From a virus: a stretch of 64,000 nucleotides of DNA. The notes under the pieces are model-generated. The model did not search any database, was not told the origin of the DNA, and saw only the letters and a program-made list of their open reading frames with translations. The DNA is taken from IMG/VR virus record IMGVR_UViG_3300031787_000001, positions 186,001-250,000 of that record, one strand, 5' to 3'. Both the position numbers and the translations under genes were made by a program. Numbering within the stretch: position 1 is the first letter of the stretch; the number at the start of each line of letters is the position of its first letter. Of this stretch, positions 50,417 through 54,853 are shown piece by piece.

Positions 50417-50938
50417 TTAATTATTTTTTCTTTTTCTAATTATTTCATTCATTGTGGTTGAAAATGTCTCATTAAACTTTTCCAACTTTGTTATGATTTC
50501 TATCACATCTGTCTCAACTTTTAACATATCTGCATTCAAATAAAGTCCATTTTCATCACCCGCAATAAATACAAAATCAATATCTTGATCCGTTACCGTA
50601 CCATCCAATCTTATTTGTTCTTGTGTAATTGTTAAACCCGGATCAAATTCAACTAAATTTGAAACTTGTGATTTAAAATTATCAATTAATCCCGATATTG
50701 AGGTCTTATCTTCTTCAGAAATTTTCATATCAATTTCATCAGAAGAAACTATTTTAACGTCAACATCATTTATAACTGTTATATCATCCTGAGTATCGGT
50801 ATTATTATCTACGGTAGGTATTTCTTGTTCATCTTCTCTTAAAATGTTACCATAAATTTTATTACTTTCATTGATTCTCCTCAATGTGTTTAACATTTTC
50901 TTTGTCTGATCATAATTTGACATTTGTTTGTTCTGCAT
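50417..50938 (-). CDS. probable internal virion protein, 173 aa
   Basis: N-terminal targeting-like helix (MLNTLRRINESNKIYGNILREDE) with LRE and INE cut-site patterns, then an acidic, beta-rich remainder. Part of the 48-51.5 kb block of similar genes. No family recognised. Confidence 0.6.
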   Translation of the reverse strand: MQNKQMSNYDQTKKMLNTLRRINESNKIYGNILREDEQEIPTVDNNTDTQDDITVINDVDVKIVSSDEIDMKISEEDKTSISGLIDNFKSQVSNLVEFDPGLTITQEQIRLDGTVTDQDIDFVFIAGDENGLYLNADMLKVETDVIEIITKLEKFNETFSTTMNEIIRKRKNN

Positions 50939-51533
50939 TTTTAAAAAATATATTAAAGTTAAATGAAGGGTTTATATCTGTATAAATATCTGAAAAATTC
51001 GATTTACATGTTATCCCCCTAAAATTTCGAGCATTATTAAAAAATCCTTGTGAGGGTACTATTTGTTTATTTATACCGTGATTATCACATAGTTTTTCAC
51101 ATAATTCGGAAAGGACAGATAATTGATCGTCGTTATATTTGTCCCAAAAATAGTGGTTTCTCCAATTTTTAACGAACGGTTCAGATCTATATGGGTCTCC
51201 GATCCAATTATTTAAAAACCCATTTATTGTATTTTTATTTAACCACCCAAGATTTTCAATTGCTATTTTTATTATTTTTTTATCTAATTTATCGTCTTTA
51301 AATGTTCTTGAACTATAATTTGTGTCAAAAATTTGATATACCATACCTAATTTAGAGACAACAAAATGGGGCACATCTTCATATGCCCCATTTTTACGAT
51401 ATCTTATTTTATTTATGAAATCATCTACTCTTCTTTTGGTATCATAAAGTAGAATTTGACTTTTTTTCGTTTTTTTTCTAATTATATTAATTTTCGAATT
51501 ATCTAAATTTTCTACGTTGTGAATTATTAACAT
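50910..51533 (-). CDS. amidase_2-like protein, likely inactive
   Basis: 207 residues with an N-acetylmuramoyl-alanine amidase layout: LIIHNVEN (first zinc His), VPHFVVSKLGMVYQIF, NHYFWDKYNDDQLSVLSELCEKL and FRGITCKSNFSDIYTDINPSFNF. In active enzymes the last block reads like G.T.H.D or G.S.H with DP; here the expected His is replaced (TCKS). The fold is probable; catalysis is doubtful. Confidence 0.62.
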   Translation of the reverse strand: MLIIHNVENLDNSKINIIRKKTKKSQILLYDTKRRVDDFINKIRYRKNGAYEDVPHFVVSKLGMVYQIFDTNYSSRTFKDDKLDKKIIKIAIENLGWLNKNTINGFLNNWIGDPYRSEPFVKNWRNHYFWDKYNDDQLSVLSELCEKLCDNHGINKQIVPSQGFFNNARNFRGITCKSNFSDIYTDINPSFNFNIFFKNAEQTNVKL

Positions 51534-51963
51534 TTCTTAACACTTTTTTTACTGTACCTCCGTTATTGTTTGGATCTTCTCCATTTTTATTTGGTCCATA
51601 ACTATAATAATATGGTATATGTGTGCCCTCGTTAGTAAATTTCATATCATCAATCTTATTGTCAATAGGATTTGAATCGTTTTCTTTAATTTCAGATTGA
51701 GTAATGTCTTCTTGAATTAAGTTTTCCGTATTTTTTTCTTCTTGGATTTCCTCAACTTTATTTTCAGATAAGGTTTCTTTAACTTCTTCTTGGATTTCTT
51801 CGATTTTAGGATCAATTTCTTTTTCGTTATTTAAATTATCGTTTGTTTCATCCTGAATTTGATTATTGATAATTTCTTCTTCAATAATTTGATCTTTTTT
51901 TTCTATCGTTTCATTATTTTCTAACTTTGTTGAATTCTCTATTTGGTTTTCTAATTTTTTTTT
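51499..51963 (-). CDS. -1-frame extension of the membrane protein at 51951-53039
   Basis: Open frame of about 154 codons with no start codon near its 5' end. It begins in the A10 run where the 362-residue gene stops, in the -1 frame relative to that gene. Composition (Glu, Asn, Ile, Gln, Lys) continues the acidic tail without a break (for example KKDQIIEEEIINN), then changes to TNEGTHIPYYYSYGPNKNG and a basic end (QRRKFR). Best read as the C-terminal part of a frameshifted product of about 512 residues, or as a sequencing or assembly error in the homopolymer. Confidence 0.6.
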   Translation of the reverse strand, partial: KKKLENQIENSTKLENNETIEKKDQIIEEEIINNQIQDETNDNLNNEKEIDPKIEEIQEEVKETLSENKVEEIQEEKNTENLIQEDITQSEIKENDSNPIDNKIDDMKFTNEGTHIPYYYSYGPNKNGEDPNNNGGTVKKVLRNVNNSQRRKFR

Positions 51964-53039
51964 TCTTCCTCTTCTTCTATTAATTTAGACTGTGGTATAT
52001 TTTCATTTTGAACTTGTTCTTCAATTTTTTGTTCTTCTCTATCTATAAAATTATTTTCATTTGATTCAGATTCTATTTCTTCTACTTGATCAATATTTTT
52101 ATTTTCTTGGAAAATATTTTCCTCTTTTGATTCTATAGTGGAAAATTCTTCACTTTCAGAACGTTCAGTGGGCTCTATAGTGGAATAATTTTGTTCTTCT
52201 TTTTTTGTGCTTTGATGAATTAAATCACCATCACTAATATCTTCACGTTCATGTTCGTGCACATATTCATTATTTGAGTTATTTTTTATTTCATTTTTTA
52301 ATGAATCACCTTCACTTTCATCTTTTGAATTCTTTATTCTTTTTTTATCATTTACAATTTCATTGTCTGTTTTTTCAGTTTTTTTATTGTCGCCATCAGA
52401 ATTATTTATTTTATTTTCTTTACTTTTTTTTGTTATAAATTCTTCAATTTTTTGTAGTTCTTCTTCTGTTGGTGTGTATTTTTCACTTAATTCCTTTTCC
52501 GCTTCGATAATAGCCGCCTCCCTACTTATTTTTTCTATATCAACAACAGGTTCAAGTGTCTGTGTTTTTTTTCTATCTTCTTCAGTAAATTTAACTAACA
52601 TATGAAGAAACGATAACGAAATGATGGGAAGCATACCTCCAGCAAAAAACGCCAAAAATCTTTTATGACCAACTAGATCGGTGTTATCTACACCCATAAA
52701 CTCAACCATTGGGGAGACGAGTTCTATCCAATCTTTAAAAGATTTACTATCTATATCAATAAAGGAATAGGCAAAATAAATATTACCAATAAATTGTACT
52801 AATGTAACTAACCCGAATGGGAAATATACTTTTTTACCCATATCAGCAGAAATGGCTGCAAGTGTAGATAACGCAGCAATTTCAATACCTATTGAAAGAT
52901 ATATTGCCCAACTAACCGGATTAGATATTCCGTACCATTTAGTTACGTGTGAAATTGAAACTAACGCAACTGTGAAAATTGGTACCAAAAAGGCACCAAT
53001 GATCAAAAGTTTATAATTTTTACTTATCCAATTCTTCAT
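51951..53039 (-). CDS. four-helix membrane protein with long acidic tail
   Basis: 362 residues. Four transmembrane segments (about 11-31, 42-64, 71-93, 127-149) are followed by a 210-residue cytoplasmic tail that is very rich in Glu, Lys, Asn and Ser. The zero-frame stop (TAG) follows GAA-GAA-AAA-AAA-AAT. The A10 run at 51955-51964 allows continuation in the -1 frame (see 51499-51963). The two products would share the membrane anchor. No family recognised. Confidence 0.75.
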   Translation of the reverse strand: MKNWISKNYKLLIIGAFLVPIFTVALVSISHVTKWYGISNPVSWAIYLSIGIEIAALSTLAAISADMGKKVYFPFGLVTLVQFIGNIYFAYSFIDIDSKSFKDWIELVSPMVEFMGVDNTDLVGHKRFLAFFAGGMLPIISLSFLHMLVKFTEEDRKKTQTLEPVVDIEKISREAAIIEAEKELSEKYTPTEEELQKIEEFITKKSKENKINNSDGDNKKTEKTDNEIVNDKKRIKNSKDESEGDSLKNEIKNNSNNEYVHEHEREDISDGDLIHQSTKKEEQNYSTIEPTERSESEEFSTIESKEENIFQENKNIDQVEEIESESNENNFIDREEQKIEEQVQNENIPQSKLIEEEEEKKN

Positions 53040-53043
53040 AATA

Positions 53044-53331
53044 TTATTTTAATTTACCTTCAAGAGTTGTGATTTCCTGATCAATTTGTGTTTGTCTATT
53101 AACGTCCAAAATTTTACGATCAGTTGATTGTATCATTCTCTTTTCAGATTTAAGACCTTCGATTTGTAATCTTAAATCCAACTCCTTTTTATTGTAAGTA
53201 GAATCTTTTAGTTCTTTCATTTCTTTTCTGATTTTACTAATCTCTCTACTATCACCACAACTTTTAAAGAATGATAATAACATAATCACAAATACAATAA
53301 TTGTAAATTTTTCTTCGATAAACTTTTTCAT
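53044..53331 (-). CDS. membrane coiled-coil protein, lipoprotein-like
   Basis: 95 residues: a hydrophobic segment (FTIIVFVIMLLSFF) ending in KSCGDS, where Cys25 could be lipidated, followed by a coiled coil. Spanin-like topology, though the gene order gives no second spanin. An exact TATAAATA late box is 7 bases upstream. Confidence 0.6.
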   Translation of the reverse strand: MKKFIEEKFTIIVFVIMLLSFFKSCGDSREISKIRKEMKELKDSTYNKKELDLRLQIEGLKSEKRMIQSTDRKILDVNRQTQIDQEITTLEGKLK

Positions 53332-53338
53332 ATTTTTT

Positions 53339-53346
53339 TATTTATA
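53339..53346 (-). promoter_or_regulatory. T4-type late promoter box
   Basis: Minus-strand TATAAATA in CTATTTATAAATAAAA, 7 bases before the ATG at 53331. Same extended block as at 9435. Confidence 0.55.
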
Positions 53347-54157
53347 AATAGTTAAATAGAGAATAACTCTCATTTCTTAATTTTTTTATTGCTTTATCTC
53401 TTAGTTGTCTTATTCTTTCTTTTGTACATCCGAATTGTTCTCCCAAGTCATCCAAATTAGATTCGACACCGGTTAAACCATAATATCTTTCGATTATTGT
53501 TTTTTCTCTATCATCTAAAACACTTAACATCAATGAAACCTTTTTTTTGATTTCTTCTTTTGTGTTTAAAGAATTTTCAGGATTATCGGCATTTTTATTT
53601 GGTACAATATCAATTATTTGGTCGCCGTCTTCATTTATCTCACTGTTCAAACTAATACAATAAGGTATACTAACATCAATAAAGTTATCGTTATTTTTGA
53701 CCAAAAACATATCTTCGTCGTGTTCTACGTTTTTTTTCTGTTTCTGTGTTTCTTGAATAACATTTGATGGAATACGTATAGTTCTTGAATTTTCATTTAA
53801 CGACGCTAAAATAGATTGTTTAACCCACCAAACAGCATAAGATATGAATTTAAATCCACTTGTTGGGTCGAACCTTTCTGCTGCTTTTATTAAACCTATA
53901 TTACCTTCTGAAATTAAATCAAGTAATTCCAATCCTTGATTTTGATACATTTTAGCAACGGAAATAACAAATCTAAGATTACCTACAACCAACTCATTTA
54001 ATAATTTTCCTCTTTCGTTTTTAGATAAGTTTTTGTCTTTTAAAGTTTCGAAGATTTCTTCTTGTCTTTCATGACTGATTACAGGAATCTTTTTAAGGTC
54101 TTTAATGTAGGATTGTAATTCTTCCGTGTTCGGTGCAATCGACTTTTTTAGTTGCAT
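53342..54157 (-). CDS. sigma-70 family RNA polymerase sigma factor
   Basis: 271 residues, without a large region 1.1. Region 1.2 (TEELQSYIKDLKKIPVISHERQEEI), region 2 (NELVVGNLRFVISVAKMYQNQGLELLDLISEGNIGLIKAAERFDPTSGFKFISYAVWWVKQSI, with the classic WWVKQ) and region 4 (LDDREKTIIERYYGL, QFGCTKERIRQLRDKAIKKL) are all present. It resembles short Bacteroidota RpoD. It probably redirects host polymerase to phage promoters, either TATAAATA-type or TAnnTTTG-type; which one cannot be decided here. Confidence 0.95.
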   Translation of the reverse strand: MQLKKSIAPNTEELQSYIKDLKKIPVISHERQEEIFETLKDKNLSKNERGKLLNELVVGNLRFVISVAKMYQNQGLELLDLISEGNIGLIKAAERFDPTSGFKFISYAVWWVKQSILASLNENSRTIRIPSNVIQETQKQKKNVEHDEDMFLVKNNDNFIDVSIPYCISLNSEINEDGDQIIDIVPNKNADNPENSLNTKEEIKKKVSLMLSVLDDREKTIIERYYGLTGVESNLDDLGEQFGCTKERIRQLRDKAIKKLRNESYSLFNYL

Positions 54158-54223: not shown

Positions 54224-54853
54224 TTATTTTTTTAACTTAATCTTCCAATAAATTCCCGCCTGTATAGATGTGGTAAAGTTATTATTTAACCCGATACCCA
54301 AACTATACATGTGATCTGTTTTGGTTTTCAACACTAAGGTAGGTCCAAAATAATTAAAACCAACTCTTCTATCTGCCCCGATCTGACCACCAACATAAAG
54401 TTGAGGTTTTGGTAACTCTTTTACAATGATACTATCACGTACATGAACCTGATTTATGTTAGACTTAAAAGTCCTAGAAACAATTTTATTTTTCTGTATT
54501 GTATCAGTAATTTGAACTGTTCCCAAACTATCTTCAAGTTTAATAGTATCTTTATAAATGTATTTAGCGAAGTAATCTTTTAAAATTTCTCCAGTATCAA
54601 CATTACTAGGTACGTCAACATAAATTGGTTTTTCAACATATATTGTTTCACCTTGTTTATATATTGTCTGTGTTTTTGTTATATACTGTGTGTCCCTTAT
54701 TCTTTTAATGACCTCATACTTTTTACCATCTACTTTTATTATTTCACCGGGTTTTGGTTGAGGTTTGGGTGTACACATCTTCAACAATAATATAACAATA
54801 ATTAAAACCGCAATTAGTAATGTCTTAAAATCTAATTTTAATAAATTTCTCAT
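54224..54853 (-). CDS. membrane-anchored protein with beta-rich C-terminus, DUF6808-like
   Basis: 209 residues: one transmembrane helix (about 11-27), then a beta-strand periplasmic part with VDVPSNVDTGEILKDYFAKYIYKDTIK and a C-terminal QLYVGGQIGADRRVG..LGIGLNNNF, similar to outer-membrane barrel strands. The layout fits a protein spanning the periplasm, such as a spanin-like factor in Bacteroidota phages. Function is inference. Confidence 0.6.
   Translation of the reverse strand: MRNLLKLDFKTLLIAVLIIVILLLKMCTPKPQPKPGEIIKVDGKKYEVIKRIRDTQYITKTQTIYKQGETIYVEKPIYVDVPSNVDTGEILKDYFAKYIYKDTIKLEDSLGTVQITDTIQKNKIVSRTFKSNINQVHVRDSIIVKELPKPQLYVGGQIGADRRVGFNYFGPTLVLKTKTDHMYSLGIGLNNNFTTSIQAGIYWKIKLKK

Follow-up and report, generated by a model that had tools for sequence, protein, structure and literature searches.

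The window analysed here, a stretch of 64,000 nucleotides, is part of a 286,785-bp virus record in IMG/VR. It harbors a gene for a membrane protein that stops just after a run of ten A, and an open -1 frame leads on from the run into the start of an amidase gene. The features of the locus are as follows.

50910..51533, minus strand: downstream Amidase_2 gene (N-acetylmuramoyl-L-alanine amidase-like), with its ATG 35 nt inside the long frame
51499..51533, minus strand: overlap of 35 nt between the end of the long frame and the amidase start
51499..51954, minus strand: extension in the -1 frame (151 codons and a stop), for a predicted long isoform of 513 aa
51951..51953, minus strand: 0-frame stop TAG, directly 3' of the AAT codon that closes the run
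51955..51964, minus strand: A10 run, read as T10 on the plus strand, in codon phase gAA AAA AAA AAt
51951..53039, minus strand: 0-frame ORF of 362 aa, the short isoform, with a membrane domain of about 150 aa and a long acidic tail
53044..53331, minus strand: upstream neighbour of 95 aa, small, membrane-anchored, coiled-coil-like
53342..54157, minus strand: upstream neighbour, phage sigma-70-family factor

The A10 run and the membrane protein

The 362-aa gene ends in GAG GAA GAA AAA AAA AAT TAG, and the -1 frame is open from the run as far as the TAA at 51501-51499. The original prediction, that the 362-residue gene (51951-53039) stops with TAG just past ten A, was confirmed in the sequence. 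Its claim of an open -1 frame also stood, no stop being found, but the frame has 151 codons after the run and not about 154. As predicted, the extension has no start codon at its beginning: no ATG, GTG or TTG occurs from the run to codon 104, where the first ATG (51645) leaves 48 aa. Upstream of the run the -1 frame has nine open codons, with none of these three codons among them. Six A10 runs are present in the 287-kb record; five are intergenic and only that at 51955-51964 lies in a coding frame.

The membrane domain is highly conserved, with about four long helices in some 150 aa, and is followed by a tail rich in Glu, Asn and Lys. No relative of the domain was detected in Pfam, PHROGs, PDB sequences or PDB folds, and its BFVD matches were uncharacterised viral proteins only (model pLDDT 75, moderate confidence). 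Bacterial homologues were not confirmed in any of the genome contigs searched. The gene adjoins an Amidase_2 gene, and its protein may conceivably be a holin-like or a regulatory component of lysis; profile searches identified no holin domain, and none of the known holin folds was matched significantly. The possibility of a tail assembly chaperone was rejected, the neighbours being the sigma factor, the small coil protein and the Amidase_2 gene, with no tape-measure gene following. Two further observations concern the surroundings. A predicted membrane-anchored protein of 209 aa (54224-54853), for which no confident family match was obtained, lies between a ClpP-like protease and the sigma factor. 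In addition, a strong terminator-like hairpin of 14 pairs is found within the start of the amidase gene (51363-51394, minus strand), followed by GTTGTCTC and not by a clean T run.

Conservation of the run and of the frame relation among relatives

When viral contigs were searched with the N-terminal membrane domain, more than 100 loci were obtained; 84 are distinct in sequence, and they define a gene family of uncultured freshwater phages. The A9-A11 run is kept in 53 of the 84 distinct relatives. In class 1 (41/84) the run is followed within 1-5 codons by the 0-frame stop, while the -1 frame continues as the extension; these extensions have 33-152 codons, and most of them terminate with a basic motif that is conserved (RNVGNTQRRRFR type; that of one member, L043, is cut by the contig end). 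In class 2 (12/84) the run is present and the long form stays in frame 0, so that a -1 slip would meet a stop, usually in 1-4 codons and always within 25, and truncate the protein. Class 3 (31/84) has no run of nine or more and a single frame with a shorter tail. That these 31 relatives manage with one frame and no run counts against a programmed slippage site, and a distant relative in LR756500 also lacks the run. No extension out of frame but without a run was seen among the 84. Homologues with one fused frame and with two frames, the two arrangements on which the original prediction was to be checked, were both found (12 fused, 41 split).

The frame order has changed repeatedly while the run stayed. 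On a tree of the N-domain, seven changes are needed for the classes, and class 2 alone needs at least four, on well-supported branches. Between the window gene (L002) and L006, the sister closest to it with an N-domain 94% identical, the frame order is reversed, and the codon phase of the run may be 0, 1 or 2 depending on the relative. A/T runs of at least 10 are concentrated in these genes, with 38 in 44.9 kb of gene versus one in 261 kb of flanking DNA.

A homopolymer length error in assembly, breaking one gene in two, had been offered as the alternative; homopolymers are error-prone and the extension keeps the composition of the tail. For the family this is refuted by a constant run length and a recurring frame relation. 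Near-identical contigs from separate metagenomes share the same run length within every group (35 contigs, all A10), a length-tolerant pattern search gave A10 in 13 of 13 matched contigs, and about 40 diverged genomes have the same frame relation, each with a 0-frame stop in 1-5 codons. The observed A10 and open -1 frame are real, and the chance that an assembly error produced them is practically nil. The same contigs bear on phase variation, in which changes in the genomic run length would switch the long form on and off. Run lengths of 9, 10 and 11 do occur within the family, as do sisters with a fused frame. However, neither the 35 near-identical nor the 13 pattern-matched contigs include a length variant, and the fused relatives changed frame while their run stayed A10, which leaves phase variation very improbable.

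The -1 frame could also be a separate downstream gene or an untranslated spacer, its frame relation to the membrane protein being incidental. The window has an ATG-initiated piece of 48 aa (51499-51645), and TTG or GTG codons occur early in the extension of some relatives. However, six extensions (L012, L016, L037, L048, L089 and L094) have no ATG, GTG or TTG anywhere, so that an independent gene is unlikely, and the C-terminal end common to the extensions is fused in frame in L006, L007, L019 and L047. The substitution pattern of the -1 frame is also protein-like. Thirteen disjoint pairs were compared without the final 12 codons (the amidase overlap); substitutions by codon position 1/2/3 were 142/139/242 (p 3e-9), and omega was 0.32 in the extension versus 0.33 in the tail before the run. 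Some single pairs have an extension omega near 1, which indicates a loose constraint, as a disordered tail would have. Judged by these substitutions, the extension evolves as protein under purifying selection, and an incidental frame relation is exceedingly improbable. The proposal of a programmed frame transition at the A10 is therefore strongly supported by the comparison of relatives, and we regard the transition as almost certainly programmed.

Some relatives have additional peculiarities. The nearest fused-frame relatives, L006 and L007, have a second in-frame A10 upstream (at about nt 811 and 766), without a stem-loop, where a slip in either direction would lead to a stop in 1-4 codons. 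L088, L089, L090, L094 and L046 have A11 and another C-terminal end (YWEVDDKK or GPSTDDN). In many class 1 relatives the +1 frame continues for 20-39 codons beyond the run before it meets a stop, and its end is not conserved; a third, unconserved product from transcripts minus one A is possible.

A stem-loop abutting the run and the proposed mechanism of slippage

The 60 nt before each run were folded. Most relatives have a hairpin whose 3' arm stops at the base preceding the A run, such as CAACCT-gaag-AGGTTG, CATCATC-cgaacaa-GATGATG and CTTCGTCA-aatga-TGACGAAG; another, CACCTCA-agagac-TGAGGTG, ends 1 nt short of it. The relatives were then reduced to 35 sequence clusters, across which the best stem-loop 0-2 nt from the run had a mean of -5.2 kcal/mol. 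Elsewhere in these tails the mean was -1.2 kcal/mol, and dinucleotide shuffles gave -1.4 (Wilcoxon tests, p about 2e-8 and 9e-9, respectively, values that are optimistic because the clusters still share descent). The best stem-loop next to the run reached -3.5 kcal/mol or lower in 27 of the 35 clusters, and 21 of these end exactly at the run, whereas at seven other in-frame A9/A10 runs of the same genes an abutting stem-loop is absent or weak. Compensatory changes were found at several stem pairs, in small alignments of sequences chosen after the hairpin was seen, and for this reason the cluster test is the stronger evidence. A search with Rfam gave no match. In the window gene (L002 being a contig with the same gene) no abutting stem-loop was found at 51965..52006 (minus strand), nor was one found in L006 and L019. 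The window's own phage would rely on the A10 alone.

A possible mechanism is as follows. The A10 would occupy the 9-10 bp RNA:DNA hybrid of the polymerase and allow the transcript to realign, so that some mRNAs gain one A, or lose two. An mRNA without the slip would yield the 362-aa membrane protein with its shorter acidic tail, and one with the slip a form of 513 aa whose tail is longer. The stem-loop that most relatives have before the run would, in the nascent RNA, help to melt the hybrid, resulting in more slippage. Slipping of the copying machinery at the run is thus very probable, and one gene would give a short and a long protein.

The original prediction had left open whether the ribosome or the polymerase slips. 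Ribosomal -1 frameshifting or sliding on A_AAA_AAA would make the long form from unaltered mRNA, and a perfect in-frame -1 heptamer of this type is contained in the run. The extension lies in the -1 frame in 41 of the 53 run-bearing relatives, and poly-A heptamers are well known as ribosomal sites (PMC3711429). However, seven A would be enough for the heptamer, yet 9-11 are retained, and the phase of the run varies. The stem-loop is 5' of the run, where a ribosome on the site would presumably cover it, and in SARS coronavirus -1 shifting is attenuated by a stem-loop located 5' near the site (PMC5009743). A stem-loop downstream, as a ribosomal stimulator, was also considered and rejected, the excess in stability not being marked (mean z -0.53 for 70 nt and -0.71 for 110 nt in about 52 sequences, pseudoknot-free folding). 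GAGGAAG stands before the window run, although Shine-Dalgarno-like stimulators are probably not to be expected, because none of the 58 minus-strand genes in the window has a Shine-Dalgarno-like site at its start. The DNA upstream of these genes is rich in A, as it is in Bacteroidota, a hint at this phylum for the host. A ribosomal origin of the long form seems unlikely on this evidence.

Slippage by the polymerase is favoured by the anatomy of the site. The run is as long as the RNA:DNA hybrid (9-10 bp), the stem-loop lies at the point of exit of the nascent RNA from the hybrid, and the run is held at 9-11 A although A7 would suffice for a ribosomal heptamer. This geometry suggests a better fit with hairpin-assisted RNA polymerase slippage than with ribosomal -1 frameshifting, and the frame transition is likely to be transcriptional. 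Rpb1 domain 2 was not found in the 286,785-bp record, in a search whose positive controls worked, and the record encodes a sigma factor; the host RNA polymerase is therefore the likely enzyme. Against slippage, certain AT-rich bacteria may tolerate A9 without it (PMC1088944). A promoter search gave no excess over shuffles.

Overlap with the amidase gene and comparison with known systems

Among class 1 genomes whose C-terminal end is the common one, nearly all have a long frame that overlaps the amidase ATG by 32-38 nt; the overlap is 8 nt in most of the class 3 genomes and in most of the distant ones of class 2. L046 and L088-L094 have a gap of 1-21 nt before the amidase instead of an overlap, and L006 and L013 are among the loci with an alternative upstream ATG. 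In class 1 the amidase start lies about 100-420 nt past the stop of the short frame, and ribosomes on the long frame would reach it because the frames overlap. Slippage probably governs how many ribosomes arrive at the amidase start, since the end of the long frame overlaps it, and so may tune amidase translation too. The comparison of sequences shows the conserved run, the frame relation, the selection on the extension, the stem-loop in relatives and the overlap; the occurrence of slippage, its transcriptional nature, the production of both proteins and the coupling of the amidase are inferred. This explanation as a whole, a conserved, programmed transcriptional slippage with two isoforms and amidase coupling, appears probable. 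More tentative, and rather doubtful, is the narrower proposal that a two-part signal, composed of the nascent stem-loop and an A run of hybrid length, splits the membrane protein into two lengths, and that through the overlap polymerase slippage serves as dosage control of a lysis-type enzyme, the amidase.

Similar arrangements have been described elsewhere. Transcriptional slippage of 15-25% gives a long or a short form of Citrobacter rodentium tssM1 (A11) and Yersinia pseudotuberculosis tssM3 (PMC4256274). As in the family, the poly-A run lies there near the 0-frame stop of a membrane-protein gene, and the slip lengthens the protein in one relative and shortens it in another, as would be the case here in the -1-type and the fused-type genomes. 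The differences are an unrelated protein and only two known genes there versus dozens of genomes here, and the passages on tssM mention no abutting stem-loop, which is present in most relatives here. The slip run of the Roseiflexus IS630 transposase has a stem-loop immediately on its 5' side, which is proposed to act by melting the hybrid upstream (PMC5009743). The stem-loop of the family likewise borders the run on the 5' side, at the hybrid's edge; however, the transposase belongs to an IS element and its T5C5 loses one C, while the phage gene has A9-A11 and its long form would need +1 or -2.

Slippage at A9 in Thermus thermophilus dnaX (PMC1088944, PMC5009743) also involves a sense-strand A run and two protein lengths with a common N-terminus, but it shortens an unrelated protein, whereas the direction varies by relative here. 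In Shigella spa13/spa32, slippage at A10 affects the overlapped next gene (PMC5009743, PMC6260861). The A10, the extension of the protein by the slip and the overlap of its end with the next gene are common to both systems; the genes are unrelated, and the effect on the next gene, measured in Shigella, is presumed here. Slippage takes place at A10 in spa13 and at A11 in tssM1, which would cover the window's phage. The lambda G/GT tail assembly chaperone of tailed phages resembles the window gene in being a phage gene with a C-terminal -1-frame extension. Here, in contrast, a membrane protein lies beside an amidase and a sigma factor, with a homopolymer A10 in place of the mixed heptamer and, in the family, a stem-loop upstream. 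A poly-A slip has been suggested for one Campylobacter phage gene (PMC2853527).

Poly-A transcriptional slippage, its use for two isoforms and assistance by a stem-loop are each already known. The known cases of programmed polymerase slippage are not very numerous; they come from bacterial genes, IS elements and RNA viruses. In the open-licence literature, where a negative result is weak, we found no paper on a conserved phage family combining all three. If slippage is true, the family would be a natural evolutionary experiment on what causes a cellular RNA polymerase to slip, since its dozens of variants include both frame orders, runs in three phases and stem-loops that covary. Ordinary gene callers would then overlook the long form in all genomes of this kind.
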